In this document: in pieces, positions 9,964-35,138 of the stretch
Position numbering within the stretch: the first letter of the stretch is position 1
Layout: each line of letters begins with the position of its first letter
Assembly (NCBI GenBank): GCA_937864815.1
Contig: CALMJY010000123.1
Coordinates: 1 to 35,219, forward strand
Source of the DNA: an uncultured Bacteroidota bacterium
GTDB lineage: Bacteria > Bacteroidota > Bacteroidia > Bacteroidales > VadinHA17
Reading direction: 5' to 3'
Length of the DNA: 35,219 bases
Translations under genes and position numbers: made by a program
Notes under the pieces: model-generated
Told to the model about the DNA's origin: nothing
Seen by the model: only the letters and a program-made list of their open reading frames with translations
Database searches by the model: none

Positions 9964-11751
9964 TTATTTAGGTAGTGTGAACAGAAACTCTGTCCCGCCC
10001 CCTGCTCTGTTTCTTACAAGTATATCTCCCTTATGAAGAAGAACAGCGTTTTTTACAATGGCAAGGCCGAGGCCTGTTCCTCCGCTCTTGCGGGAACGAC
10101 CGGAATCAATCCTGTAGAAGCGTTCAAAGATCCTGCTCATATGTTCTTCAGGTATCCCTACACCATTATCAGATAATGAGAAGTGATAGAACTTCTTGTC
10201 CTCATTATAGACAATGATTTTAATTGTAGTATTATCTCCTGCATAATTGATGGCATTCTCAATCAGGTTCTGAAAGATTGAAAGAATAAGCGATTTGTTA
10301 CCCTTTACAACAACTTTGCTTTCTATATCAATATCTACAATTATATTTTTTGTTTCAATAGCAGATTTGAAATTTTCAGCAACCTCTTTTATTGTTTTCC
10401 TGATTTTAACCTTTTCATCAGTATAAGTTGTTCCCGCCTCTTCTATTTTGTTCAGAACAACAATATCATTGATCAGACCGGTTAATCTGTCAGTTTGTGC
10501 AAGAGCTTTCTCCAGAAAATACTTCTTTTGTTTCTCCTCCATCGAAGGATCATTCAGAAGAGTTTCAATATATCCTTTAACTGATGATACGGGCGTCTTC
10601 AGTTCATGGGCAATATTGGATGTCATCTGTTGTTTTATCAATTTGCTTTTTCCAAGTTTGGTAACATCGCTGAGTATAACTTCGAAGCTCTTGTCATTAA
10701 AAATAACACATTGAACTCTGAAAAACCTGCCGTCTTTGGTAACCTGGTACTCGGTTTTAGGAAGGTCAGGACTTATAATATCTGTATTTGAATATTTGTC
10801 AATAAAATCAATTATTTCATAGAATTCAGGAATTTCAAAGAAGTTCGAAGTGAATATTTTGAGCTCACCTGAAATCATATTCATCAGCTGAATAAAATGG
10901 TCGTTGTTAAGAATAATTGATCTGTCCTTTGAAAAGAAAGCCACTCCCTCATTCAAGGCATCAAGATGGCTGAAAAGTTTTTCTCTTTCTGTAGCAAGGT
11001 CATTCTTGGTCTGCAGCAGGTTATTATATATCGTCAGGATCTCTTCACCTATGAAACCGATCTCATTTTTAGGAAATTTTGACTCAAAGTCGAATGGTTC
11101 ATTCTTGCCAACATGCTGAGCAAAATCGCGAAGCCTGGTAATCGATTCACTGAATTTGTTGGTTATGATGAGCATAACGAACCAGATTGCTATGAAAGCT
11201 GATAGAATTATCAGGAGAAAATTTTTCTTTGCAGCAAGAAAATTCTCAATGTTGACATCATATAATACAGCGGCTCTTATATAGTAGCCTTCAATATATT
11301 CTGCATAGTAATAATATGGTTGACCTGTTGATCCTGAAAGTCTTACCGATGTACCGAACTGTTCCTCTGAAGCCTGAATTATTTCAGGTCTCTGTGAATG
11401 GTTTTCCATTGATAACCAGTTTGGAACAGAACTGTCGTAAAGTACGACACCTGTCTTATCAACAATTGTAACCCTGAGATTTGCCTGGGGAAGAAGCTTT
11501 ACAAGGGAATCAAGTATTATGTAATTTTTCTTTTCATGGATAGAGTTTGCTGAGATATATTTTCCTGTGATTTTTACTATGTTATGAAGTTCATCATTAA
11601 GTGTGCCTGTACGGTAATCCTTTTCCCTCTTATAGAGATAGGCAAGCATAAGGAAAATAAATACAAGGAAAACTATCGAGTAAAAGAGAAGAAGATTATT
11701 TCTGAATGATCCGCGAACAGCATAGCTTTCAGAATTCAAAAAAGTAACCAT
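9964..11751 (-). CDS. phoR: PhoR-like sensor histidine kinase
   Basis: Two TM helices, PAS-like region, [54 protein letters not shown]; follows an OmpR-family regulator. Start ATG at 11751 preferred. Confidence 0.85.
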
Positions 11752-12415
11752 AACCGGTTTTATTCTTAAGATTATGACCATATTTTCCCAGCTTGGTCCT
11801 CAGCCTGGTGACATTCACATCAACAGTACGGTCAGTCACAATTACATCGGTCCCCCAAATGATTCTTAAAATATCCTCTCTTGAATATACCTTTGTAGGA
11901 TTCTCGAGAAGGAGTTTGAGTATTTCATATTCCTTTTTTGTGAGTTCAATTTTTTCATCGTTAACTATTACTCTTTTACGGGCTGTATCAAGCTGAATTT
12001 CGCCGAATTTTGCAATAGGCAGGCTTTTTTCTTTTGCAGAGTTTGTTCGTTTCAGAACAGCTTTTACCCTTGCTGTTAATTCATTAACAGAGAAAGGTTT
12101 GGTTATATAGTCATCAGCACCAATACTGAATCCTGTAAGTATGTCATTTTCTGTATCTTTGGCTGTCAGAAAGATCACAGGTACACTATTCCCCATCTCT
12201 TTTCTTAACTTATCTGCGAGCTTAAACCCCGAAATCTGGCCCATCATTACATCGAGCATGAGTAGGTCATATTCCTCAAGCTGCATTTTCAGAGCATCTT
12301 CAGCAGAATGAGCTATTTCAGTTTTATATCCCTCATTGCTCAGATTATATTGAAGAATCTCACACAGATCCTCTTCATCATCAACAATCAGAATGCGTTT
12401 TCCTTTTAGATCCAT
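11729..12415 (-). CDS. phoB: PhoB-like OmpR-family response regulator
   Basis: [41 protein letters not shown]-terminal winged helix [26 protein letters not shown]; overlaps the kinase start. Confidence 0.85.
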
Positions 12416-12452: not shown

Positions 12453-12508
12453 CAAAGGTAAGTGCAATTATTGTTACAAAAAATATGTAAGTGTTACTTA
12501 AATGTTAC
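12453..12508 (-). promoter_or_regulatory. Candidate Pho-box-like promoter of the response regulator gene
   Basis: CAAAGGTA at 12453-12460 (minus-strand TACCTTTG = TAnnTTTG); TGTTAC at 12472, 12492 and 12503 (last two 11 bp apart). Confidence 0.5.
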
Positions 12509-12535
12509 AAAAAAAGGCTGATCTTTCGATCAGCC
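12509..12535 (-). terminator. Rho-independent terminator of the 14183-12573 gene
   Basis: Minus strand GGCTGATC-GAAA-GATCAGCC followed by TTTTTTT. Confidence 0.9.
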
Positions 12536-12572: not shown

Positions 12573-14183
12573 TTAGTAATCAGTATTCTGAGGGTTAAAG
12601 TTGCACCATCCTGAAGTCCAGTCTGTTGTTCCGAATGCACCCCTGTATGCTACCTGTGTAAAGAAAGCATCAGTCAGTCTGGTATTTGTAAATGAAGCGC
12701 CTGTGAGCAAGGGTGATCCTGCTGCCGGAAGGAATTTCGGAGCTGTAAGATTGAAAGGATCTGTAAGCATCAGCAGGTCATTTGTTGCCTTAATTTCATT
12801 ACCTCTGAGGGCATCGAGATACCATGCTTCGGTTCCCGGCAGACTTGTTAAGACATAATTTTCTGTCATTCCGCTCATAACAGATTTCTCAATCTGCAGG
12901 ACATTAGCAGTTGCCTGTGCAGGTGAATCGCCTTTGGCGCCATCGATGAACAATCCCTTTGGCCATCCTGCCAAAACTGTATTATAAATAGATGTGCGGG
13001 TACCTCTGCGGAGCTGCATGGAATGACGGTAAAGTGCATGTATTGTTGTTGTTGACGTTGCAAGTGGGCCGAGTACAGTACCGTTAACAAACAATGGCAT
13101 AGTAACAGGAGTAAGAGTTGAGCCGTCAGCGTCATTATCTGACTCAAATCCGTTCGACTGTGACTGGTCTGCAACTGCAGGATCGCGAAGGCTGACAAAG
13201 AACTGTACTTTACCGGTATAACCGTTATCTGTATCCCAGTCATCATCCCAGCCCCTGTGGGCAACAAGGTATTTACAGTTCACACTACCACCGAACCATT
13301 CAAAAGAATCATCACCAGAGTAAGATACCTGGATGTGATCAATAGTGGTTGCTGATCCTACTGCATAAAGGGTAAGTCCGTTAATTTCGCTGTTAGATGT
13401 TGAAGTAAGCGGAATTCCGGGGAATTCAATCCTTACATACTGAAGTATACCTGAATTATCAGCAGAATTTGTTCCTCCATAAAGTGAACCTATTCCGCCT
13501 TCAGCTTTTCCTTGTCCGGTCACTCCATCGTCATGCTTGTTAGTCAGTGCGTTACCGCATATAACCAACCCGCCCCAGTCACCGTAGGTACGCTGTCCTT
13601 TCGGCTTATCTGATGTGAAGACTATCGGTGCAGTAGCAGTTCCCTGGGCCATGATTTTAGAGCCTCTCTCAATAATAAGGGTGCCTTTTGTACCTGAAAC
13701 CCCTTTAATTATGGTACCTGCCTCAATAGTAAGAGTTGCATTGTTTTTTACATAAACAAATCCATTGAGCATGTATTTTCCTGCCGCATACCATTTGGTA
13801 TCTGTAGTAATATCTCCTGATACATTTATTACCTGACCTGTTGCAGGAGTAACAACAACCGAACATGTTGCCTGGATAGTAGTATCCGACTCGGAGATTG
13901 CAGTTATTGTGGCTGAACCGAGTGCCACACCTGTAACTGTTCCATTGGCTACTGTAGCAACAGCCGGACTTGACGTACGCCATTTAATGTTCTGGTTATC
14001 AGCATCTACGGGTGTTATAAATACTGAAAGGGTTGATGTTGCACCTACCTGTACCATCATGGTTGCCTTGTCGAGTTCAATAGCAGTAACCGGAATCGGG
14101 TCATCCTCACATGAGGCCACAATTAATAATAATCCCGTTAATAAACTCAGCATTTTTGCTGATCTGTAAAGATTTCTTTTCAT
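12573..14183 (-). CDS. Secreted lipoprotein with BIG2-type Ig-like domain and right-handed-repeat-like C-terminal region
   Basis: Lipobox LLLIVASCED; ITPVDADNQNIKWRTSSPAVATVANGTVTGVALGSATITA (BIG2). Confidence 0.8.
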   Translation of the reverse strand: MKRNLYRSAKMLSLLTGLLLIVASCEDDPIPVTAIELDKATMMVQVGATSTLSVFITPVDADNQNIKWRTSSPAVATVANGTVTGVALGSATITAISESDTTIQATCSVVVTPATGQVINVSGDITTDTKWYAAGKYMLNGFVYVKNNATLTIEAGTIIKGVSGTKGTLIIERGSKIMAQGTATAPIVFTSDKPKGQRTYGDWGGLVICGNALTNKHDDGVTGQGKAEGGIGSLYGGTNSADNSGILQYVRIEFPGIPLTSTSNSEINGLTLYAVGSATTIDHIQVSYSGDDSFEWFGGSVNCKYLVAHRGWDDDWDTDNGYTGKVQFFVSLRDPAVADQSQSNGFESDNDADGSTLTPVTMPLFVNGTVLGPLATSTTTIHALYRHSMQLRRGTRTSIYNTVLAGWPKGLFIDGAKGDSPAQATANVLQIEKSVMSGMTENYVLTSLPGTEAWYLDALRGNEIKATNDLLMLTDPFNLTAPKFLPAAGSPLLTGASFTNTRLTDAFFTQVAYRGAFGTTDWTSGWCNFNPQNTDY

Positions 14184-14228: not shown

Positions 14229-17102
14229 TCAGAATTTATATGTTAATCCAAGTGTAAAATACCTTCCTGGCTGATAGGATTTTACTATCTGTTCCCTTTC
14301 AAAATGTTTTATACTGTTATCAGCTCCGCCTGTCACGTCAGCCATGTTTACAGTAGCGTTTACTGTCTGAACGGTTTTAAACTGTTCATTCAGAAGATCT
14401 TTCAGCCCCAGTTTAACTTCGAAGTGGTCATTTATTTTTTTACTTATTGCCAGGTCGATAAGATTTCTCGGTGTTTCATAGATGTTTGGAATATCTTCCC
14501 ATTCATTTGGAGAAGGCCTTCCTACTGCAACAATCCTTTTTCCTATAATATTGTACATAGTTGTAATCATCAAACCATTATTGTCATTATAATAGAACAA
14601 CCCGGCATTGATCATAAATGGCGACTGTCCCTGGAGAGATCTGTCCCTGTTGAGATCTCCATCAGGGAATTGAACCTTGCTTTTAATTAAGGCTGCATTC
14701 AATATAAGGGAAAAGTTTTCAGCTCCGGAAATGAATCCAAGAGATTTCCTGACATCTGTCTCCAGTCCGTAGCTGTATGCCGAAATGACATTCTTAAAGG
14801 AATATTGAGTAGGGCTGTTCCCCGTTATTGTCATCTCAATGGGATTTTTGAAATTCTTGTAGAAAAGCCCTATATTGAAAGTCTCATTGGGTGACGGGTA
14901 GTGTTCAAATCTCAGGTCAATATTATGTATATATGACTGTTTGATATCAGGATTACCATAGATACCGGCATTAAGATCAAAATCAACGAAATAGAAAGGT
15001 GCCAGTTCCCTGAATTCAGGTCTGTTAACCGATAATCCGTAAGCAGCCCTTATAAGGTTCTTTTCATTGAGGTTTACAGCCAGGTTTGCTGAAGGGAATA
15101 AGTTGAGTGTATCCCTCCTTACATTTACAGGAATAGTTGTGCCCTGCCTGTAGCTGTCGAGAGTCTGTATATTTTTCTCTACCCGGAGGCCTGTATATAA
15201 GCTGATGAATGAAGTTATGGGTAATTTTGCTGACAGATAACCTGATATCTGCTTATTTGATGCATTATATGAATCGGATGGTGAAGTTATTTCAGCAAGT
15301 TTTATTCCGTCAGTAAGATTTATATTGTTATCAACAAATACCATATCTGCGGGTAAATATGTCATGCTAAAATCAGAAAGGTTTCCTGCTGTTGACCATC
15401 CGAAATTCCTTGCATTGAATTCTCTTACCTTATTCTCGAGGTAGATACCTGTTCTGATCTCTGGTTTAAAGCCTGAGAGGTCAAGCTCTTTGGTGAAATT
15501 TATTGAAGCTGTCATCAGATCTTCCCTGAGTTTCAGCCACATTTGCGATTGAGAGGAGAGGTCGGCATTATCGGCAAACAGCATAAAGTATTTTGTAGTG
15601 TCAACTTCATCCCTGATATACCTTGTGCGTTTGATGTCAGGTTCATTTTTGTTTGAAAATGCATATCCTGCAACCCAGTCAATTTTTGATGTTCCGTCAC
15701 CAAATGTATGTTCTCCGGCAAGCTGTCCTGAGTATATGGTTCTGCTCATGTACCTGAGCTCATTTGATCTTATGTACCTTCCGTTATTATACCATTCACG
15801 TCCATCTCTCTCACTATACCTGTTCATGCCAATCTGGTTCAGAAGGTTACGAAACTCCAGCTTTGTATTGTTTGAAGGAAACCAGGTCCAGTTGTGCATT
15901 ACTCCGGCTTTAACCGTATTTGTGTACTGGTCATCATAGAATTCGTCGAGATAAGATGGTTTATCATCCCTGAAATTGTATATTGAATAGCTGTTATTAT
16001 TTATGTAATCGTAGTTGGTAGTATTGCTGTATGTAACAGATGTTACATTTCCAAAGGTTTGTGAGCCGCTTTTGAACCTTTTATTGAACCCGACTGCAAA
16101 TCGCTGATCAGGGATTGCAGTACCTTCTTGCTGAGCCCATGTTTTATTGAGTGACCTTCCCAGGTCGGTAATCCTTTTTTTAATCTGGGGATTGGTGGCA
16201 TTTTCATACTGGTTCAGGTGGGAAGGCATGTCAGCAGGAAGATCTCTGTATCCGTTGTCAAATCCCAACCAATCGGTACTTCCGGGTTGATATCTGGCCG
16301 ATGCGTCAAATGTTGCTCCCTGTGCAAAAGCTGTACCGTAGGTAACAAAAGCAGAGTTTTTTTCCGGAAGGTTGACTGTGGTTATCTTGACAAAGCCACC
16401 TGAAAAATCAGCCGGCAGCTCTGGAGCCGGTGACTTTATGATCATCATATTTTCAATCATAGAAGCAGGTATAACGTCAAAAGAAAACGCTTTAACATCA
16501 GATTCCGAGCTTGGAGTTGCAGTATTATTGAGCCAGACTGAATTATACCTCTGTGCCAGTCCTCTTACAACGATAAACCTGTCATCAATTATTGTTGTTC
16601 CCGGGAGTCTCTTTATTACTTCAGATGCATCCCTGTCCTGTGAACGAAGGATCTGTTGTCCTGAAATGCCGATTGAAACAAGCGGACTCATCCTGGTTGT
16701 ATTTATCATCGATACATCGGTGTTGGTTTTTTTAACACCTGTTATTGTTACTTCCTGGAGTGCAACTGTATTCTCTGACATTACAACCGGAACAGAGGTA
16801 GTCTTGCCTGCCTTCACTTCAACCCCTTCAAATACAAGCGGATCAAATGAAATATATGAAGCTCTGAGTTTATATTTCCCTGGCTTCACATTAGTTATTA
16901 TGAATTTCCCGTCAATATCGGCAGAAGCTCCCATTGTTGTACCATCAATCGTAACCATTACTCCCGGCAGTGCTTCCCCCGTCTTCTTATCAGTTGCTTT
17001 TCCTTCAATTGTACCTGTCTGACCTGTCAGTGCAAAAGCAACTGATATGATCAAAAACATTGTAATAAATACCCTTTTTAGCATTGAAAAATTTGTTTCC
17101 AT
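14229..17102 (-). CDS. TonB-dependent outer membrane receptor with carboxypeptidase-regulatory-like domain
   Basis: GTIEGKATDKKTGEALPGVMVTIDGTTMGASADIDGKF; plug region RDASEVIKRLPGTTIIDDRFIVVRGL; C-terminal aromatic FTLGLTYKF. Confidence 0.92.
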   Translation of the reverse strand: METNFSMLKRVFITMFLIISVAFALTGQTGTIEGKATDKKTGEALPGVMVTIDGTTMGASADIDGKFIITNVKPGKYKLRASYISFDPLVFEGVEVKAGKTTSVPVVMSENTVALQEVTITGVKKTNTDVSMINTTRMSPLVSIGISGQQILRSQDRDASEVIKRLPGTTIIDDRFIVVRGLAQRYNSVWLNNTATPSSESDVKAFSFDVIPASMIENMMIIKSPAPELPADFSGGFVKITTVNLPEKNSAFVTYGTAFAQGATFDASARYQPGSTDWLGFDNGYRDLPADMPSHLNQYENATNPQIKKRITDLGRSLNKTWAQQEGTAIPDQRFAVGFNKRFKSGSQTFGNVTSVTYSNTTNYDYINNNSYSIYNFRDDKPSYLDEFYDDQYTNTVKAGVMHNWTWFPSNNTKLEFRNLLNQIGMNRYSERDGREWYNNGRYIRSNELRYMSRTIYSGQLAGEHTFGDGTSKIDWVAGYAFSNKNEPDIKRTRYIRDEVDTTKYFMLFADNADLSSQSQMWLKLREDLMTASINFTKELDLSGFKPEIRTGIYLENKVREFNARNFGWSTAGNLSDFSMTYLPADMVFVDNNINLTDGIKLAEITSPSDSYNASNKQISGYLSAKLPITSFISLYTGLRVEKNIQTLDSYRQGTTIPVNVRRDTLNLFPSANLAVNLNEKNLIRAAYGLSVNRPEFRELAPFYFVDFDLNAGIYGNPDIKQSYIHNIDLRFEHYPSPNETFNIGLFYKNFKNPIEMTITGNSPTQYSFKNVISAYSYGLETDVRKSLGFISGAENFSLILNAALIKSKVQFPDGDLNRDRSLQGQSPFMINAGLFYYNDNNGLMITTMYNIIGKRIVAVGRPSPNEWEDIPNIYETPRNLIDLAISKKINDHFEVKLGLKDLLNEQFKTVQTVNATVNMADVTGGADNSIKHFEREQIVKSYQPGRYFTLGLTYKF

Positions 17103-17135: not shown

Positions 17136-17202
17136 CAAAAATCCTTTGATATTGTTACGGCGATGTTAAGTGCGGATTAAGAAAATATTACTAAAATGTT
17201 AC
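17136..17202 (-). promoter_or_regulatory. Candidate Pho-box-like array: five TGTTAC-like repeats at exact 11-bp spacing
   Basis: TGTTAC 17153, TGTTAA 17164, GATTAA 17175, TATTAC 17186, TGTTAC 17197; minus-strand -7-like GATTTTTG at 17143-17136. Confidence 0.6.
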
Positions 17203-17346
17203 AAAAGAAAAACAGTGTTTTAGTAGATCAGGGAGGATTTCTTATACAGCATTATTGGGGTCAGTAAATATGAGTTGTATCACCACTATGAAGTGATATC
17301 AGGTACTGTAAAGATTATTACCTTGCAAAGACAATAAAATATAATT

Positions 17347-18033
17347 ATGAAACTGAAAAGATACTTCGCAGGCTTGTTGTTCATTACCTCATTTGTCCAC
17401 GGATACTCACAGACTACGGTTAAGCCGAATTTTGGTCTTAAAAGCCATGAGACCCTCGATATTGCTAAAGTTGAGATTACAATAGAAAAGACTGTAGTAA
17501 ACTTTACAATTGAGAACCGTATAGAAAATGGTACATTCTGTGCCGACAGAAAAATTTACATAACCGATCCTGCAGGAAACAGATACAAAGTGATCAGCGC
17601 AACCGGAATTCCGGTTTGCCCTGACAATTATACTTTTAAGAAGCCGGGAGAGAAGCTCAGTTTTACACTCACATTTCCTCCCCTTACCGGAGAGTATGCT
17701 TATATCGATTTAAAGGAAGAGTGTTACGAAAACTGTTTTTCTTTTTACGGTGTAGTGCTTGATGAATATATCAACAGCAGGCTTGATGAAGGATTCTCCC
17801 TTGCTGAACGCGGGGAATCGCTGAAGGCTCTTGACAAGTTTACAAAGATGGTTGATATGGCAGGAAAGTTCAATGGAATTAAAGCCCTGGTATATTATAA
17901 TATAGTAAAGCTGGCAACTGATACCGGTCACACGGTTCAGGCCGGTGAATATTATAAAAAGCTGATTTCCATGAGTTCAAGAGGAGGGAAGATATATATT
18001 GAACAGCTTAATCTGCAGGGTATAAGATATTGA
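17347..18033 (+). CDS. Hypothetical secreted protein (beta-rich N-terminal, TPR-like C-terminal)
   Basis: Signal peptide MKLKRYFAGLLFITSFVHGYSQ; C-terminal helices LDEGFSLAERGESLKALDKFTKMVDMAG. Confidence 0.7.
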   Translation: MKLKRYFAGLLFITSFVHGYSQTTVKPNFGLKSHETLDIAKVEITIEKTVVNFTIENRIENGTFCADRKIYITDPAGNRYKVISATGIPVCPDNYTFKKPGEKLSFTLTFPPLTGEYAYIDLKEECYENCFSFYGVVLDEYINSRLDEGFSLAERGESLKALDKFTKMVDMAGKFNGIKALVYYNIVKLATDTGHTVQAGEYYKKLISMSSRGGKIYIEQLNLQGIRY

Positions 18034-20165: not shown

Positions 20166-23100
20166 CTAATTGCTTTTTAATAGCACAAACTCCTCAAACA
20201 ATCCGTAGTCAGGGAAGCTGTAATCCTTTCCGGAAGGATATTTCTCAATATTCCTCCATGTCCATGGAGTTACAAAACCCGGGTTTGGTTTTGAATGATG
20301 CGGACCCTGGAGGTTTCGCAGACTGCCTATAACCTTAACCTCAATTTTGTTCATGCCGGGTATAATGAGTCCGGTTACATCAGTGGTATAAGGCGGGAAT
20401 GCTATCGGATCTGCCTGCTTTCCATTCACATATACTTCCGCAACAGTACCAGACCATTTTTTAAGAGAAACAGCCCATTCTCCCTCTGTTTTTTCAATGC
20501 TGTATTCCCTGCTGTATGTTACTCCCCATGAATAGAAAGGCATCTCCTGGTCCTTCCAGCTGTCCATTGTATATATTCCGGTAGGCTTCTTAATCAACCA
20601 TCCTTTTTCATCAGGTATAAGTGAGAAATCACCAACAATGTAAACAGGTTCCACCTCAGCATGTACTTTCATTGGTGAGGCTTTCAGAGTAACTGTATTT
20701 GTTCCCTGTTTAACGTGTTTTCCGATGCTGAAGACCCTGAACGACCTGTCGAGCCACCAGGCTCCGGGCTCTGCGTTTATCTCCATGCCGTTGATTGTTA
20801 CACTCCAGTTCCATGGACGCTCTATCACTGCCTTTAATCCTGTAACATCGAAATTATCCCTGACGGTAAAATGATATGAAGCTGTAAATCCTGTATTGAC
20901 ATTAAAAGTATCTCTGTCAATAATGTTGGTTCTGAACTGCACAGATGTATTCCATGGATTGCCATTAATAAAGCCGTGATATTTGAAAACAGTGTCAGCA
21001 GCATTAAAGGTGTGAAGATCCTTAACCGGACCATTTCCCAGATCAATGTCACAGAAATCAATCATCAGCACATTCTCCTTTTCCCTGTTTATATTTACAG
21101 GGAAGGGGGACTCAACAACATTTGTGGGTATTTGTCTTAATGGTACGACAAAATTGTTATCATTTTCAGGTATGAAGAGGAGCAGACTTCCGGCAGGAGG
21201 TATCGAAATTGAGAGACTAACTTTTCCATTCAATGTTTTTACCGGGTAGCCATAAATCTCACCTGTAAGTGTATTTAGTTCAGCTGCTTCACTGCCTTTC
21301 ATTGTAAACGAACCTCTTACATATGCCTCAAGATCAGAGTTTACCAGGAATATAAGCTGCCCGTCTGAAAGAACTCTTCGCTGATGATAAAGTGTTCCGC
21401 CTTCTTCAATGGCAAAATCAATTTCCTCTTGTGAAAAGTGTTTTGCAATTATTTCGTTATTAAGATCAGATTCTTTTATAATTTTCGCTGAGTTATCACT
21501 GAAGAATTTTGTCATCTCATCATTTTTTGAACCGTTGACAAGTGTTGGTTCCGAGAAAGCTATCAGCATTCCTCCCGATGAAACAAATTTCCTGATCAGT
21601 TCAAATGTACTCTGATCAAGATTTTCAGTGTATGGAGGAATGACAACCCTGGAGTAGGATATCTTTCCTACTTTCAGCTTCCCTCCTGAAACGCTTCCCA
21701 TATCCTTCATAATATTTTCTGATCCCAGATCGTATTCAACCTGACTCTTTTCAAGCTTTGTTATGAAGGACTGGAAGACCTGACCTATCTCATGGCAACG
21801 TGGATTCTGTTTAACATAAGAATCATACAGCCAGGCGCTTGTTGAAGGTTCAATTACCAGGATGTCGTTGATCTGGCGTCCTGCTGACAATGCCAGTGAA
21901 AGCCGGGCATAGTGATCGTTAATATACCTGTAATCGTTCCACCATGGTTCATGGTAGTCAAAGGTTGGTGGATGGTCATATTTTCTTGCACCGGACATAG
22001 TGAAATATGTGAGATGCTGGTTCATGAAGTTCACGCCGAGTACATATTCCCAGTCACCGTTACGTTTCATATCCCTGAATGACAGGTCCCATCCCGATGC
22101 TCCATATGTCTCGCTGAGCTTTCTCTGTCTGCCGGTCTGATTGGCAGCACTTGCAAGTTCCTTTACAGATCTCACATTTCCGAACTGGGCAAAAGATGAA
22201 CTGTCATTGAACTGGTTGAAAAGCATATCAATGGCCGGCATCTGGTGCCAGGCATACATGGCCATATTGTCGCCCCCAAGGTGCATATTTGGCCACTCAT
22301 GTTCCCAGTAATGTCCTGTAAATATCAGCCCCTTTTCCTCGCAATAGTTATACCAGGGTTTTGCCCACCTGTCGATGAAAAGCTGAAGGAGGGTCTGTGT
22401 GTAATTATGTCTTACCTTTTTCCAGTCTCCTGTTTCTTCAAATAAAGAAGGAAGATTCAGTTTCAGATCATAGTTCCATTGCTGCATGAAAACTTCGAAC
22501 AGGTCTGGTGTCCATCTGATACCTCCGGGAGAACTAATCTGCGGTTCATCAGTAAAAGTGCCGGGTACGGTATTTCCAAATTCGGAACCAATATTTTTCT
22601 CATATCCGGTCATTGTTATATCGATGAATTTCTGTGTTACACCAGGCAGGAGAAGATCAACATAATTGAAACCACCATACCAGTCTGATTTGGCATTATA
22701 TGTTTTTGCAAAGAGAAGATAGCTGCCTTTTTTACCTTTTTCTGAAGCCAGAGAAGCTGTGATATCTGTAATTTTACCTGCTTCATCTTTCAGAATGAGA
22801 TAGTATTTTCCGGCAGTATCAGGCAGTGTTTCGACTTTTGTCATTGTAAGTCCCTGTCCCTGATTGTACGATTCAGGCATCTGATCAGGAACATGACCAC
22901 CTGCAAATCCGCTGGGATAAGAGTTTTCATCATAGATCCATACCTTCATGCCGAGCTCTTTTCCCTTTTCCACTGTATACCTGTACAGATCGAACCACTC
23001 TTCAGAGAGATATTCGGTAACCAGTCCGGGTCTGGGATGGATAAATGGCTGCATGACTCCCTGCTCTTTGAAACTTATCAGAAAACTGTCAATCTCCTCC

Positions 23101-23297
23101 TTATTTATTTTTTCATCCCATGTAAACAGAGGGCCTGAAGCATATTCGGCAGGGGGTTCATTAAATTGAGCCGAAAGGGTTGCAAAGTCGGGTACCTTCA
23201 CTTCATTGGGAAGATTGTCCTTGCAACTGCTTAATATACAGATAAAAGATAGTATAAAAACTATTTTTATGCCCTGAATGTAATTATGTAACTTCAT
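20166..23297 (-). CDS. Large secreted glycoside hydrolase, GH106 (alpha-L-rhamnosidase)-like
   Basis: Lipobox ILSSCKD; FNEPPAEYASGPLFTWDEKINKEEI, GMKVWIYDENSYPSGFAGG; C-terminal beta-sandwich/galactose-binding-like region. Confidence 0.65.
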   Translation of the reverse strand: MKLHNYIQGIKIVFILSFICILSSCKDNLPNEVKVPDFATLSAQFNEPPAEYASGPLFTWDEKINKEEIDSFLISFKEQGVMQPFIHPRPGLVTEYLSEEWFDLYRYTVEKGKELGMKVWIYDENSYPSGFAGGHVPDQMPESYNQGQGLTMTKVETLPDTAGKYYLILKDEAGKITDITASLASEKGKKGSYLLFAKTYNAKSDWYGGFNYVDLLLPGVTQKFIDITMTGYEKNIGSEFGNTVPGTFTDEPQISSPGGIRWTPDLFEVFMQQWNYDLKLNLPSLFEETGDWKKVRHNYTQTLLQLFIDRWAKPWYNYCEEKGLIFTGHYWEHEWPNMHLGGDNMAMYAWHQMPAIDMLFNQFNDSSSFAQFGNVRSVKELASAANQTGRQRKLSETYGASGWDLSFRDMKRNGDWEYVLGVNFMNQHLTYFTMSGARKYDHPPTFDYHEPWWNDYRYINDHYARLSLALSAGRQINDILVIEPSTSAWLYDSYVKQNPRCHEIGQVFQSFITKLEKSQVEYDLGSENIMKDMGSVSGGKLKVGKISYSRVVIPPYTENLDQSTFELIRKFVSSGGMLIAFSEPTLVNGSKNDEMTKFFSDNSAKIIKESDLNNEIIAKHFSQEEIDFAIEEGGTLYHQRRVLSDGQLIFLVNSDLEAYVRGSFTMKGSEAAELNTLTGEIYGYPVKTLNGKVSLSISIPPAGSLLLFIPENDNNFVVPLRQIPTNVVESPFPVNINREKENVLMIDFCDIDLGNGPVKDLHTFNAADTVFKYHGFINGNPWNTSVQFRTNIIDRDTFNVNTGFTASYHFTVRDNFDVTGLKAVIERPWNWSVTINGMEINAEPGAWWLDRSFRVFSIGKHVKQGTNTVTLKASPMKVHAEVEPVYIVGDFSLIPDEKGWLIKKPTGIYTMDSWKDQEMPFYSWGVTYSREYSIEKTEGEWAVSLKKWSGTVAEVYVNGKQADPIAFPPYTTDVTGLIIPGMNKIEVKVIGSLRNLQGPHHSKPNPGFVTPWTWRNIEKYPSGKDYSFPDYGLFEEFVLLKSN

Positions 23298-23375
23298 AAT
23301 AATCTCTTTTTTATGAAACTAAATGATTATTTGGAAGAATGCAACATTTCTGAAATATATGTTGGTTGTTTTTTT

Positions 23376-23478
23376 ACCACAGAGTTCACAAAGGTCTTCG
23401 TTTCTCTCAGACAATCACAAAGTTCACAGAGTCATTATCTCTGTGTGCTCAGTGTAAATACTCTGTGCCCTCTGTGGT
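23376..23478. repeat. Long imperfect inverted repeat, ACAGAG family
   Basis: ACCACAGAG (23376-23384) … CTCTGTGGT (23470-23478) with internal cacagag / ctctgtg copies. Confidence 0.8.
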
Positions 23479-23492
23479 TAAAATTATTTAGT

Positions 23493-25085
23493 TCAGAATC
23501 CTTTTGTTTCGAAATCTGTTGAATCTACCCATCCTGCAGTTTTACGGTGGATCTCACCTTTCATGTACCTGTTATAGAAATCTTTTGTACGAGAGTCGGC
23601 ATACGGGTATTTATCAAAAACATCTCCATTACCTTTTATTCTTGGATCCTCCTGCTTAAGAAGCTCATCATAGAGCTGATTATTCAGCCTTCTTCTGATT
23701 ACATTATAACCGGGATCATTTGCAAGGTTGACAAGACATTCCGGATCACCAGTGATATTATAAAGTTCATCATCATCTCTCTTCCCGAAGTTAAGTTTCC
23801 AGAATTCTGATGATATCCCGCTTCGTCTTATATTCAGTATCCGAGTTTTGGTAGGGCTTCCGTCACAATTAAGATATCCGGTTTCAGGATTCCCTGCAGG
23901 CCATCTTTCAGGTATATAGTTTTTCAGATAAAGAAAACCATCCTTTATTAAACCTCTTATCGGGTATCCCGCATCATCGGGACGTCCAACATCGTGTCGT
24001 TCTTTGCCGATAAGAACATGATCCCTCTTCTTATCAATAAAGCCTTTTTTTCTGCTTGAGAAGATATCGGAAAAGCTTTTTCCTTCCATTTTATGCATAC
24101 CTGATGCAGAAGGAGATATCCCTGCCACCTCAAGCAGTGTTGGTGCGAAATCGATAAAGCTTATATAATCATTGACTTCCCTGCCTGGTTTTTTTATCCC
24201 TTTTCCCCACATAACAGCCAGTGGCATATGGTTGGAATATTCATATGCCTGTCCTTTTACCCTGGGGAAGGGCATGCCATTATCTGCTGTCACAATTACG
24301 ATGGTATTCTCCAACTCACCTCTTTTTTCGAGGATCTCCAGCATTTTTACCAGGTGATTGTCAAAGTGCTCAATTTCAAATGCATAATCGAGCATATCAT
24401 TTCTTACCCTTTCGTCGTCTGGCCAGAAAGCGGGGATATTGCCTGTTTCAACTGTTTTTTTACCTCCCTTGCTGACACCTGATCCATATTCATAAATCCT
24501 GTGTGGTTCAAGTGAACCATACCAGAAGCAGAATGGAGAGCCTGCATCTTTTGTATTGAGAAATTCTTCAAAATTGGATGCATAATCAATTTCTGAGATC
24601 CCTGTTGTCGGTGGAGTCAGTTTTTTCGAATTGTATGCCTTTCCTGTCAGCTGCCTTGGATTACTTACTGAGTCGAGAGCTACTCCGGGTGCCCAGCCTT
24701 TTGCGGTATGTCCTGTGGAATATCCGTTTGCTGAAAGGGATTCCATGAAGGACCTGAATTTGGGAGGGAAAAAAGGTACATGGTTGGCAGCTTCTTCGAG
24801 TTGCCAGCTGTTCAGTCCTGTAAGAAAACAAGCCCTTGAAGGTGAGGATTTGGCATTGGGAGTGTATGCATTCCTGAAAAGGATTCCTTCTGCCGCTACC
24901 CTGTCAAATCCCGGTGTTTTAACCCATTTGGTACCGTAGGCTCCCATATGAGGATATGAAATATCATCACCCATAACAATCAGGATGTTTGGACGTTCAC
25001 CTGAAGGCTTGTCCTGAGATCCTCTGGTGCAAAATGTTAACAGCAGGGGAGAAATAATGAGACCTGCCTTAAATGTTTGATTCAT
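23493..25085 (-). CDS. Sulfatase (S1/arylsulfatase family, Ser-type)
   Basis: [21 protein letters not shown]; signature [11 protein letters not shown] with Ser at the formylglycine position; start ATG at 25085 preferred. Confidence 0.92.
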
Positions 25086-25124
25086 TTCTTCTTGTTTAAT
25101 GATTATCAGTATATATTTTATAAT

Positions 25125-25148
25125 CCACACAGAGATTCACAGAGATCA
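25125..25148. repeat. Partial copy of the CACAGAG repeat family
   Basis: ccacacagagattcacagagatca reaching the stop codon of the TonB receptor gene. Confidence 0.55.
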
Positions 25149-27395
25149 AAAGCTCCCTGACACCCGGAGGCTCACATTCCGGTGAGGCTGAATATCACCC
25201 GGTCGACCCATATATTCTGTATTTGTCAGATTCTTAACTGCAAATGAAAGTACAAGCGATTTATTTATGTGGTAGCCTGTATTCCAATCAATCATGAAAT
25301 ATCCTGTGTTATGATCCTGCCAGTAATTATAAAATCCGGGAAGGATCTGTTCTCGTGTTGCTTCATTAAGAAACACATCATCAATGTTGAGTATTTTCGA
25401 CCTTGCATATAAGGTTAAACCTGTTTCGAACTTCCTGTAAGTTAAATCAAAACTGATTTTTGCCGAGTGTTTACGCCGGTATTTCAGATAGATATCAGAT
25501 GATTGGTTGGTGACCCGGTTGAATTCAACCGGATGTATATAGGTATATCCTCCTGTGGAAGTAAGGATGAAATCATTATAATTACCTCCCAGGGATAATT
25601 CGAGCTCATACCCGTAAATCCTTGCCTGCTCAATATTATTGGCCTGAAATCCCAGATCAAAGATACCTGTAACCGGATCGGGATAGTTGCTGAATACATA
25701 TTCTATCATATCCTTATTCTGAGTAAGGAAGAAAGCCAGGTCAGCCTGCCCTGTTGCTTTTCCGATCTTTACCCCCTGCTTTATACCTATCTCTGTGTTC
25801 CATCCTGATTCAGCTTCAACATAGGGATTCGGGAAAATTTTAACAGATCCGAGGGTGGTGGAGGCATGTTTCTCAGCTATGGAAGGGTATCTGTATCCCT
25901 GTCCGAATGATGCTCTGAGAAATGTATATTCTGCTGCCTGCCAGTTGATCCCGGATCTTACAACAGGTACAATTCTGTCATTCTTATTATCGAGAGAATT
26001 CTGTTCCAACCTTATACCTGCAACCAGTTTAAGCTTATGTACAGGTTCAGCCTCCAGCTGGGTAAAACCAGCAATGTTCATACCTTCATGGTCACCATAG
26101 AAATTGGACTTTACATTACTGTATGTCTCAGATGCTCCGGCAGTCAGGGAAAAAATATCAGATAATTTGAAGAAACCCTGATATTCAGCATACAGTGAAT
26201 AAGCATCAGAATTATTTTCGGTACGAACCGGAAATCTGTTGTTCGATGACTGGAACCTCACTCTTATGTCATGCCGGAAACGGCCTGAATTATTGAATGT
26301 AAGATACGGATCGACAGCCAGAAATGTCCCGGTTAATTCTGAAACACTTGAAGTATCCTGTTTCAATGCACCATATTCAGCGTCTTCCCAGAGAATGAAA
26401 TCGGTTTTATCTGTTATACCTGAATTAAGATTGATTCCATAAGACAATCCTTTTACCCTGGCGTTGCGGTGCTTAAGTCTGAAGCTGATCCTTGCAAGTT
26501 TCTCGTCATTATATTTCCTGTAACTGTTGTCTGAAAGGAGACTCAGGCCAATTCCAATATCATTTTTTCCTGCTTTCCGGAGATGAGAGAATGATGCTGA
26601 TGTAAATATCCTGGGGGAATCCCACCATTCCCAGTTCTTATTATCAGGTTTGCCGAATATTCCTGTTTCTGCGTAAAAATTAGTCTCCGGCTGGCCGGAT
26701 GCATCAGCTGTCCGGAAGTTGATAATACCGTTCAATGCTGAAGAACCGTAGAGGACTGAGGATGCACCCTTAATTATTTCTATCTGCCTTATGTTTTCAA
26801 GTGGGAGGAACTGCCATTTAATATTCCCTGCATCGGGTGAAACAACCGGCAAACCGTCGATAAGAGCCATTACACGGCTTCCGACACCATAGCTGAATCC
26901 GCTTCCTCCCCTTACAGATGCCTGACCGTCAAGAACTTCAATACCTGCAGTTTTTGTAATAAGTTCCTGAGGATCAGTTATGTGTTTGTTAAGAAAATCG
27001 GTAGTTTTTAGTATATCCATTGAGACTGTCAGTTCTGCCACCTGCTTTTCTGCCCTGTCGGCACTGACGACTATCTGGCCTATCTCTTTGATATCCATGT
27101 CTAGTCCGATATTGATTCTGACAGTATCACCTGTTATAATGTTAACAGTTCTTTTAATGGTTTTATAACCGATAAACTGGTACGTTATTTCATTATCGCC
27201 CGGTTTACATGAAATTGAGTAGAATCCATCTTCACCGGTTATTGTACCATGGTTAGGTGGACTGATGACATAAACACCCTGAACCGGTTCCCCAGTGACA
27301 TTATCAGTAACAAAGCCGGATACAATCCCCTGGGAAATGGTAACGGTTATAAGAGATTTGATTATTAATGCAACAGTTAAAAGGTAGTATCGCAT
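25146..27395 (-). CDS. TonB-dependent outer membrane receptor
   Basis: Carboxypeptidase-regulatory-like N-terminus GFVTDNVTGEPVQGVYV; plug GSGFSYGVGSRVMALIDGLPVVSPDAG, IEIIKGASSVLYGSSALNGIINF. Confidence 0.93.
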   Translation of the reverse strand: MRYYLLTVALIIKSLITVTISQGIVSGFVTDNVTGEPVQGVYVISPPNHGTITGEDGFYSISCKPGDNEITYQFIGYKTIKRTVNIITGDTVRINIGLDMDIKEIGQIVVSADRAEKQVAELTVSMDILKTTDFLNKHITDPQELITKTAGIEVLDGQASVRGGSGFSYGVGSRVMALIDGLPVVSPDAGNIKWQFLPLENIRQIEIIKGASSVLYGSSALNGIINFRTADASGQPETNFYAETGIFGKPDNKNWEWWDSPRIFTSASFSHLRKAGKNDIGIGLSLLSDNSYRKYNDEKLARISFRLKHRNARVKGLSYGINLNSGITDKTDFILWEDAEYGALKQDTSSVSELTGTFLAVDPYLTFNNSGRFRHDIRVRFQSSNNRFPVRTENNSDAYSLYAEYQGFFKLSDIFSLTAGASETYSNVKSNFYGDHEGMNIAGFTQLEAEPVHKLKLVAGIRLEQNSLDNKNDRIVPVVRSGINWQAAEYTFLRASFGQGYRYPSIAEKHASTTLGSVKIFPNPYVEAESGWNTEIGIKQGVKIGKATGQADLAFFLTQNKDMIEYVFSNYPDPVTGIFDLGFQANNIEQARIYGYELELSLGGNYNDFILTSTGGYTYIHPVEFNRVTNQSSDIYLKYRRKHSAKISFDLTYRKFETGLTLYARSKILNIDDVFLNEATREQILPGFYNYWQDHNTGYFMIDWNTGYHINKSLVLSFAVKNLTNTEYMGRPGDIQPHRNVSLRVSGSF

Positions 27396-32271: not shown

Positions 32272-33513
32272 ATGAATTCAAGAGAACGTATTCTTTCAGC
32301 AATCAGTCACATGCAACCCGACAGGGTACCGGTTGATCTTGGAGCTACACCCAGCTCCGGTATATCCGCTGTTGCATATCATAACCTGATACGACATCTG
32401 AGAATGACTCATCTGAAAAACAGGGTTTATGATGTCATTCAGCAGGTAACCCAACCTGAAATGGAACTCCTGAACCATTTCAATGTCGATGTACTGGATG
32501 TGGGACGCTTCTTTAACACTCCTGATGATTACTGGCAGGAGCTTGAGCTTATTAAGGGCGTTCCTGCCTTATACCCGAAATGGTTCAATCCTGTGAAACA
32601 GCCTGACAACAGCTGGCTGGCTCCGGGAAAGACAGGTGAGTTTATCGGTAAAATGCCTGTGGGGGCAACTTTCTTTGACCAGCAGATATTTCCATATCTT
32701 GACGGATACCCTTCTGATTACATCGATATTGGCAGGGAGATGTCGAGAGTAATATGGGGCGGATTCGGTTTCACCCCTTTCGATCACCTTGATGAAAAGG
32801 ATTTCTGGAAGATGCTGAGAGAGACTATAATTCGTGAAAAGGCAAAAACAGATAAGGCTCTTCTTATCGGAATCGGTTGTAACCTTTTTGAATGGGGAAC
32901 CTTCCTCAGGAGAATTGATAATTTCCTTATGGACCTTTACCTGGAACCGGAGAATGTTCACCGCCTGCTGGATAAACTGATGGAAGGACATATGGCATTC
33001 CTTGCCAAGATTTGTGAGTCGGTCGGCGATGTGGTTGATATTATAAAATTCGGCGATGACCTCGGGACCAATACAGGACCTTTCATGCCCAGGGAGACAT
33101 ATGATGAGTTTTTCGGTCCCAGACATAAGATCCTGTGTGATTATGTAAAATCCCATTCCACAGCACATACAATGCTGCACGTCTGCGGAGGTATTTATGA
33201 ACTCATCCCGGGACTCATCAATGCAGGATTTGAAATAATCAATCCGGTACAGATCAATGCAGTAAACATGGAACCGGAGCGGTTAAAGAAAGAATTCGGA
33301 AAGGATCTTACTTTCTGGGGTGGTGGCTGCAATACACAAAGTGTTCTTAATCAGGGAACCCCTGAAGAGATAAGGAAGCATGTGCTTCATAACCTTGAAG
33401 TATTCAGTAAAGACGGAGGATATGTTTTCAATACAATTCATAATATCCTTCCTGATGTGTCGCCTCAGAATGTTGTGGCTTTGTTTGATGCAGTTGAGGA
33501 GTTTAACCGGTAA
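32272..33513 (+). CDS. Uroporphyrinogen decarboxylase-superfamily protein (MtaA/CmuA-like methyltransferase)
   Basis: MNSRERILSAISHMQPDRVPVDLG; KFGDDLGTNTGPFM; HVCGG … GGGCNTQS (H-x-C-Xn-C). Confidence 0.88.
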   Translation: MNSRERILSAISHMQPDRVPVDLGATPSSGISAVAYHNLIRHLRMTHLKNRVYDVIQQVTQPEMELLNHFNVDVLDVGRFFNTPDDYWQELELIKGVPALYPKWFNPVKQPDNSWLAPGKTGEFIGKMPVGATFFDQQIFPYLDGYPSDYIDIGREMSRVIWGGFGFTPFDHLDEKDFWKMLRETIIREKAKTDKALLIGIGCNLFEWGTFLRRIDNFLMDLYLEPENVHRLLDKLMEGHMAFLAKICESVGDVVDIIKFGDDLGTNTGPFMPRETYDEFFGPRHKILCDYVKSHSTAHTMLHVCGGIYELIPGLINAGFEIINPVQINAVNMEPERLKKEFGKDLTFWGGGCNTQSVLNQGTPEEIRKHVLHNLEVFSKDGGYVFNTIHNILPDVSPQNVVALFDAVEEFNR

Positions 33514-33591
33514 CCGGTAATCGGTGATCGGTAATCGGTGATCGGTGATCGGTGATCGGTAATCGGTAATCGGTAATTTGTGATCGGTAAG
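33509..33591. repeat. Heptad tandem array (GGTRATC)~12
   Basis: ggtaacc ggtaatc ggtgatc ggtaatc ggtgatc ggtgatc ggtgatc ggtaatc ggtaatc ggtaatt tgtgatc ggtaag; overlaps the stop codon at 33511-33513. Confidence 0.95.
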
Positions 33592-33614
33592 ATAGTTTAT
33601 AATTATCAGATTTT

Positions 33615-34667
33615 TCAGTGTCTTCGGATCTCCTTCGCAGCCTCCACCATTGCCATAAACCCGTCAACCGGAATGTACCCCGGAATTGAATTACCTGAAC
33701 CAAGTCCGTAACCATTAGCTTTGGCACGGTATACTGTTCCCATCTCCAGAACATTCCTGTAAACTTCCTCCGGTTTATTAAGGATGATAAGATTAAGATC
33801 AAAGCCTCCAAAGAGGCCTATCCTTGAGGAATATTTATCAATCCACGCTATGAATGGAGCAATCTGATCTTCATTGGAATGTTTGGCATCTATCCCAAGA
33901 CCTATTATTTCATCCATAAGAGGGAAAATACAGCCACAACTGTGAAGAAGAAATTTTTTACCCGAAGAATGAACAAGGTCTATTACTCTCTTATACTGAG
34001 GGAAGATATGTTCTCTTATAATATCGGGCTCAAGCATTGTTGAAGTCTTGTGACCAAGGTCGTCTCCCATTCTGTAGAAGACAAAAAGATCGTGGTAATT
34101 TTCGATTAACCAGCTCCATAACTCCACCCATAGATCACCAATTTTTATAAATAGTTCACGGAAAAGATCCGGATCCATGCATTGCATTACACACAGATAT
34201 TCAAATCCCACAAGGTCCTGACTGGCCTCAAAGATTCCATACCCGCAACCGCCATAAGCCTTCATTCCCTGTGGTAAAGTTTTGCGAATAGCTTCAAAAT
34301 GAGGAATGTAAGTGGTTTTAAAAATCTGAGGAATTTCATTCCATGGATATTTATTGAAATCATCCCTGGTCTGGATCGGTCCCGCCATGCCTCCAAGAAT
34401 GGCGCCATGCCCGGGAAGAATATCGCAAATAGCAGCTTCAAAGTCGAAACCATCATACGTCATATTATTCCAGAAACCAATCACTTTTTTGTAATAACCT
34501 ACAAGGTCATCTCCTTTAAGACCTGCAGGATTTATATCCTCTCCAAGAGCTTTTGAGATAAATGGGGGATCAATGTGATGTTCATATAACGGTAATCTTT
34601 TTGGTCTCTGGTTATTAAGAACTGAGAGTAGATTTGTATAGTCAGGGGAGAAAGAGGGGTCTGTCAT
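33615..34667 (-). CDS. Uroporphyrinogen decarboxylase-superfamily protein
   Basis: LNNQRPKRLPLYEHHIDPPFI; YRMGDDLGHKTSTML; LLHSCGCIFPLMDEI; GLFGGFDLN. Confidence 0.85.
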   Translation of the reverse strand: MTDPSFSPDYTNLLSVLNNQRPKRLPLYEHHIDPPFISKALGEDINPAGLKGDDLVGYYKKVIGFWNNMTYDGFDFEAAICDILPGHGAILGGMAGPIQTRDDFNKYPWNEIPQIFKTTYIPHFEAIRKTLPQGMKAYGGCGYGIFEASQDLVGFEYLCVMQCMDPDLFRELFIKIGDLWVELWSWLIENYHDLFVFYRMGDDLGHKTSTMLEPDIIREHIFPQYKRVIDLVHSSGKKFLLHSCGCIFPLMDEIIGLGIDAKHSNEDQIAPFIAWIDKYSSRIGLFGGFDLNLIILNKPEEVYRNVLEMGTVYRAKANGYGLGSGNSIPGYIPVDGFMAMVEAAKEIRRH

Positions 34668-34702
34668 GTTGTAATAGTGAATTGTTAGAGTTAAAGGTAA
34701 TA

Positions 34703-34740
34703 AGTAATCGGTAATCGGTATTCAGTAGTATTCTGTAATC
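34703..34740. repeat. Heptad array, GGTAATC/GGTATTC family
   Basis: agtaatc ggtaatc ggtattc agtagtattc tgtaatc, 8 bp downstream of the minus-strand stop at 34749. Confidence 0.8.
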
Positions 34741-34748
34741 GGCTGGTT

Positions 34749-35138
34749 TTATTGGGATTTATTACAAAATGTTGAAGATTTATCAATCATAGAATGAAGC
34801 ATCTTACCTATGGATTCACATTTTTGAATTAATTCTTTGGCTATTTTGCTATCAATATAATTACATTCATCAGCTTCTTCAATCCAATGTTGGGTCTCAA
34901 GTTGTTCTGAATCAGCATCTGTAAGCTTAGAAATGAAATGGTTTTCATACCTTCGTTTACCCCAGGCTTCAGCTATCTGTGCTCCAACTGATCTTGAAGA
35001 TCTTCTTATCTGATCAGTCAATGAAAATTTTTCTTCAGAAGGGAAACCTTTAGTGATTATATAGATTTCTTTTGAAACCTCCCTGGCAAGCTTATATACT
35101 TCAAGGTCTCTAAAACTCTTCACATAAACCATATTCAA
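34749..35138 (-). CDS. Four-helix bundle protein (23S rRNA IVP / bAvd-like family)
   Basis: VKSFRDLEVYKLAREVSKEIYIITKGFPSEEKFSLTDQIRRSSRSVGAQIAEAWGKRRYENHFISKLTDADSEQLETQHWI. Confidence 0.92.
   Translation of the reverse strand: MNMVYVKSFRDLEVYKLAREVSKEIYIITKGFPSEEKFSLTDQIRRSSRSVGAQIAEAWGKRRYENHFISKLTDADSEQLETQHWIEEADECNYIDSKIAKELIQKCESIGKMLHSMIDKSSTFCNKSQ

Follow-up and report, generated by a model that had tools for sequence, protein, structure and literature searches.

A phased five-unit candidate Pho box at the promoter of a TonB receptor gene next to phoBR in an uncultured Bacteroidota bacterium

The upstream region of a TonB-dependent receptor gene in an uncultured Bacteroidota bacterium contains five direct repeats in 11-bp phase, and computational evidence makes it very probable that they form a multi-site PhoB operator at the receptor promoter. 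They lie on a stretch of 35,219 nucleotides (assembly GCA_937864815.1, contig CALMJY010000123.1; Bacteroidales, VadinHA17), the whole of which is called the window here. The suggestion of a candidate Bacteroidota Pho box came from a sequence-only reading of the window, and it is now supported by conservation of the array, by its recurrence at phosphate genes and by the identity of the neighbouring PhoB and PhoR. A Pho box is a kind of site already known, and the receptor-lipoprotein/phoBR system is known in outline from the PUSIV locus of Flavobacterium johnsoniae (PMC8115612). What appears new is an explicit Pho-box signature for Bacteroidota, here from a genome in which neither PhoU nor Pst was detected; at the receptor it reads (TGTAACA-N4)2-6, 13 bp before a TAnnTTTG promoter.

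The array (17153-17203, minus strand) is located in the 244-bp gap that separates the receptor gene (14229-17102, minus) from the divergent gene at 17347-18033 (plus). On the plus strand TGTTAC, TGTTAA, GATTAA, TATTAC and TGTTAC start at 17153, 17164, 17175, 17186 and 17197, with a step of exactly 11 bp. The coordinates and phasing first proposed therefore hold, but the repeat had been written as the complement of the regulated gene's strand. In gene orientation the units are TGTAACA (17197-17203), AGTAATA (17186-17192), CTTAATC (17175-17181; the weak middle unit), CTTAACA (17164-17170) and CGTAACA (17153-17159), that is, repeats of 6-7 bp each in the pattern (TGTAACA-N4)n toward the TonB gene. 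With the strand corrected in this way, the repeat comes closer to known Pho boxes than the version first given, and like a PHO box it consists of direct repeats of about 7 conserved and 4 loose bases with an 11-bp period. The receptor-direction sequence TGTAACATTTTAGTAATATTTTCTTAATCCGCACTTAACATCGCCGTAACA contains five approximate TGTAACA-N4 units and 13 bp, followed by the TTTG of GATTTTTG. None of 300 dinucleotide shuffles of the 330-bp receptor upstream region reached the five-unit score, and a spacing scan of the upstream region gave 26 at 11 bp vs 16-18 at 8-10 and 12-15 bp. By a unit matrix trained on the other genus only, the array scores 32.3 bits, whereas the next-best non-overlapping five-unit place in the 35-kb window scores 4.0 bits.

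The predicted promoter element of the receptor, GATTTTTG (17136-17143, minus), is TAnnTTTG-like and lies 9 bp past the gene-proximal repeat, in agreement with the distance of about 10 bp noted before. Its TTTG stands 13 bp past the last repeat, a distance that all 16 promoters with this arrangement show. As in a PHO box, the site adjoins the predicted core promoter of the gene that it would regulate.

Which genes are found behind this promoter? The receptor (PF13715, PF07715; TIGR01782-like; alternative start ATG at 17083) is the first gene of the putatively controlled unit, and on the minus strand it is followed by the lipoprotein gene, phoB and phoR. The lipoprotein (12573-14183, minus) is a surface lipoprotein with an N-terminal Big_2 domain and a large conserved C-terminal region. 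This region has no match in Pfam, NCBIfam or PDB, the PDB and NCBIfam searches with the lipoprotein returned nothing beyond the Ig-like domain, and an AlphaFold model made without alignment has a pLDDT of 29.7. The response regulator PhoB (11729-12415, minus; NF053854, 330.2 bits, cut-off 270) and the sensor kinase PhoR (9964-11781, minus; NF053855, 639.5 bits, cut-off 500) both exceed the curated NCBIfam equivalog cut-offs for the Bacteroidota forms, so that the neighbours formerly called phoB/phoR-like can be named PhoB and PhoR. The receptor and large lipoprotein genes adjoin phoBR, as in the PUSIV / ElpS-type arrangement, and a hybrid kinase gene adjoins phoR. The divergent gene encodes 228 aa with no Pfam family; it shares the intergenic region with the receptor and often adjoins the receptor-lipoprotein pair in relatives. 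Elsewhere in the window, a GH106-like rhamnosidase, a sulfatase and a second TonB-type protein (20166-27395) resemble a polysaccharide utilisation locus, for which the matrix scan found no Pho box; two URO-D-family genes and a gene for a 23S rRNA intervening-sequence/bAvd-like four-helix protein lie at 32272-35138.

Is the array kept in relatives? In the same family (117 genomes searched), about 25 genomes from two genera have a receptor orthologue, with identities of 41-80%. All 25 upstream regions scanned, that of the window among them, fit five TGTAACA units best at a spacing of 11 bp, and each array is significant against dinucleotide shuffles (p<=0.007). The phased repeats are thus conserved at orthologous TonB genes, one of the checks named in the sequence-only reading. 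The mean column information is 1.27 bits in the array, compared with 0.50 in the 25 columns just upstream. One group of orthologues carries TGTCAT units. The other loci of genus 1 show a related arrangement with a longer gap, mostly with phoB divergent from the receptor and boxes on both strands between them. A search for related loci with a single receptor protein gave one locus, L143, whose receptor upstream region has no two-unit match of at least 13 bits, with single GTAACA-like units visible. As a separate observation, in genus g14 (L105-L107, L109) an AsmA-family gene replaces phoBR upstream of the receptor, and a Pho array lies between.

The box recurs at other phosphate genes. A matrix of the receptor arrays, with the window's array left out, was scanned over 252 kb of neighbourhoods, where two-unit sites of at least 16 bits number 38 at 11-bp spacing, against 0-8 when the spacing is set to 8-10 or 12-15 bp. 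Receptor arrays from many of these loci had gone into the matrix, but not the phoB, Pit and pst sites. On the gene maps the 38 sites lie before the receptor, phoB, Pit transporters, pstS and a 216-aa gene beside Pit, in the position of the DUF47 partner. Thus, as is characteristic of PHO boxes, the site is common to known phosphate genes (pst, pit, phoB), and this was another check asked of the array at the outset. In genome G049 a box stands directly before pstSCAB-phoU-phoB-phoR, beside the receptor-lipoprotein genes. In the 4.66-Mb window genome, the sole exact TGTAAC-N5-TGTAAC lies 137 bp upstream of a Pit gene (PF01384, 2.8e-97). For a second Pit gene (C170), no strong box was seen in the 350 bp before it. 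The sequence-only reading had named the receptor and lipoprotein as the regulated genes. The phased repeats do lie at the receptor of this pair, but the regulon is wider, with boxes also at phoB and Pit.

Allowing one mismatch gives 21 sites in the window genome vs 11 for the reversed pattern, so about half of them are expected by chance. With up to two mismatches the two-unit pattern shows no excess over the reversed control in the whole genome; loose matching is therefore useless here, and a matrix or a near-exact pattern is needed. The intergenic one-mismatch sites with a same-strand gene at most 150 bp downstream belong to Pit, phoB, a CHAD-domain gene, a 442-aa protein and an alanine-racemase-like gene. 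CHAD domains bind polyphosphate, and the CHAD-domain gene, 73 bp downstream of the two-unit box TGTAACATTTTGGTAAC (L195; C5:8809-8825 of the window's own genome), is likely a polyphosphate-related member of the regulon. The box TGTAACAAAAATGTAAT (L208; C241:28737-28753 of the same genome) lies 40 bp upstream of the 442-aa protein, which has no Pfam family and looks like an outer-membrane beta-barrel; it was considered as a phosphate porin and rejected for having no Pfam porin match. The sites at cytochrome bd, TetR, DEAD helicase and alanine racemase genes are probably due to chance. In genome G088 (C337; L132 1501-1528) an MGDG-synthase/GT28-like gene near Pit has the box CTTAACCAGCTTGTAACA upstream of it, which suggests Pho-controlled lipid remodelling; a glycosyltransferase of the same Pfam family is induced in the PhoBR operon of phosphate-starved F. 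johnsoniae (PMC8115612).

Within the window there is a second candidate Pho box upstream of phoB (12472-12509, minus), which the sequence-only reading did not include. It consists of TGTAACATTTAAGTAACA at 12492-12509, the sole exact TGTTAC-N5-TGTTAC in the window, and a third TGTAACA at 12472-12478, 20 bp further on and outside the 11-bp phase. By the matrix from the other genus only, it ranks second among the two-unit sites of the window. A TAnnTTTG promoter element of phoB, TACCTTTG (12453-12460, minus), is predicted. Between the lipoprotein gene and phoB the sequence reads as an intrinsic-terminator-like hairpin, GGCTGATC-GAAA-GATCAGCC-T7 (12509-12535, minus). From this hairpin and the second box after it, phoBR would seem to form a transcription unit apart from that of the receptor and lipoprotein, with one box for each.

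A scenario for the control of these genes can be proposed. When phosphate is scarce, PhoR (9964-11781) would phosphorylate PhoB (11729-12415). PhoB would then bind the 11-bp repeats head to tail along one face of the helix, by analogy with PhoB-type regulators (PMC4415409), and recruit RNA polymerase to the promoter of TAnnTTTG type that follows the last repeat at a distance of 13 bp. In this way it would switch on the TonB receptor and the surface lipoprotein, which may serve as a surface capture and import unit for a phosphorus compound, as proposed for the F. johnsoniae clusters. The separate box before phoB would allow autoregulation, and the same box would drive the Pit phosphate transporter elsewhere in the genome.

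Some points speak against a PhoB operator: one of the five repeats, the middle one, is weak, sites at 11 bp would be expected of any OmpR/PhoB-type regulator, and PhoU and Pst, through which the signal usually comes, were not found. Could a different OmpR/PhoB-family regulator encoded in this genome bind the array instead? Tandem sites at 11 bp are a general trait of this family, tandem sites serve other response regulators that share the DNA-binding fold, and a hybrid kinase is encoded next to phoR in the window. However, the same box stands before phoB, Pit, DUF47 and pst genes, and in several genomes phoBR is divergent from the receptor with the boxes in between, so we consider another regulator unlikely. 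Even less probable, at the level of a slim chance, is that the array mainly serves the 228-aa gene (17347-18033) or is a repressor site for the receptor. The array does lie between two divergent genes, and in relatives the 228-aa gene is found with the cluster, but the element kept at a fixed 13 bp from the array is that of the receptor promoter, several relatives have the 228-aa gene elsewhere with the array still at the receptor, and a site just upstream of a promoter is typical of activators. Chance periodicity in an AT-rich intergenic region, for which one may cite that loose two-unit patterns are common, is hardly credible and was rejected on the shuffles, the 25 orthologues and the far higher conservation of array columns than of neighbouring ones.

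Given a PhoB operator at the receptor, there is a further question that can be put to experiment: how is PhoR controlled where Pst and PhoU are missing? In the window genome, a 97% complete draft, PhoU has no match and PstB none over the cut-off, so neither the PstSCAB nor the PhoU of the canonical Pst-PhoU-PhoR system was detected. Four of five sister-genus draft genomes tested also lack PhoU, while Pst/PhoU are present in G049 and genus g14. PhoR of the window genome therefore cannot be controlled through Pst and PhoU in the manner known from E. coli, with the reservation that absence from a draft is not proof. The extracytoplasmic region of PhoR, which has a sub-threshold single-Cache-like match, could sense phosphate shortage directly; the DUF47 protein beside Pit is another candidate for the control of PhoR.

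How far does the signature extend? Of 290 genomes sampled from the class, 144 encode a member of the lipoprotein family (E<=1e-60). At 20 class-wide lipoprotein loci the lipoprotein gene usually lies next to that of the receptor, and at several the pair is found beside phoB-, phoR- or pst-like genes. Eighteen class-wide receptor promoters show 11-bp repeats with a looser xTAACA core; with three unit counts tried, 14 of them reach p<=0.015 for one or more (mononucleotide shuffles, uncorrected for the three tries), and the class-wide statement is weaker than that for the family. As a side observation, the recognition-helix region of the window's PhoB (11729-12415) differs from the DRTIDVHIRKIREKLG of other orders in the class, a difference in protein sequence that may accompany the change from TGTAACA to looser xTAACA boxes. 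A broader hypothesis, whose chance we would put somewhat short of even, is a Pho system free of Pst and PhoU, in which PhoR's own domain or Pit/DUF47 would do the sensing and a class-wide box of xTAACA per 11 bp would control outer-membrane phosphorus import, Pit, polyphosphate handling (the CHAD gene) and lipid remodelling. With the signature, the phosphate regulon becomes predictable in Bacteroidota, which abound in soil, sea and gut, and an uncharacterised, widespread receptor-lipoprotein pair is tied to phosphorus.

Several known systems can be compared with the one described here. The Bacillus subtilis PhoP box is made of TT[ACT]A[AC]A repeats about 5 bp apart. The present array shares with it GTAACA/TTAACA units, N5 spacing, the gene direction and several units per operator, although the phylum is unrelated and the regulator is PhoB rather than a Bacillus-type PhoP/PhoR. 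The E. coli PHO box comprises two 11-nt direct repeats with a CTGTCAT core, bound head to tail by PhoB (PMC4415409). Tandem promoter repeats of 7 conserved and 4 loose bases are common to both, and so are the TGTCAT units in one orthologue group; here, however, the core is TGTAACA, there are 5-6 units at the receptor, and the promoter element is of Bacteroidota type with no sigma-70 -10. In the open-access literature (subscription journals lay outside the search) we found no paper defining a Bacteroidota Pho-box motif. Bacteroides fragilis PhoB binds the pstC promoter in EMSA with a 512-bp fragment, likewise a Bacteroidota PhoB at a phosphate promoter, but in the part of that report available to us no box sequence is defined (PMC3547664); in the accessible part of a marine survey that includes a flavobacterium, Pho boxes are predicted and the motif is not given (PMC4796936). 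In Caulobacter crescentus, the gene of the phosphate-starvation lipoprotein ElpS (CC0170) lies beside the TonB receptor gene CC0171 (PMC2996285). The likeness is one of gene arrangement, and ElpS differs in coming from an alphaproteobacterium and in its type II secretion-dependent release (PMC2996285). The FI-FIII forms of F. johnsoniae are reported to be 31-36% identical to a low-phosphate Caulobacter lipoprotein (PMC8115612). The resemblance to F. johnsoniae PUSIV, or 'PhoBR operon' (Fjoh_0543-0549), is one of gene arrangement and domains: phoR, phoB, a TonB receptor (PF07715, PF13715) and a large lipoprotein lie side by side, as the window's pair lies beside phoBR, and Pst is missing in the Flavobacterium strains of that study, which, unlike ours, reports no Pho box (PMC8115612). 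On phosphate depletion the log2 change there is 8.02 for the receptor and 9.91 for the lipoprotein, and a surface capture/import unit was proposed for the phosphate-induced clusters (PMC8115612). By this analogy, the receptor gene of the window would also be induced through PhoB when phosphate runs short.
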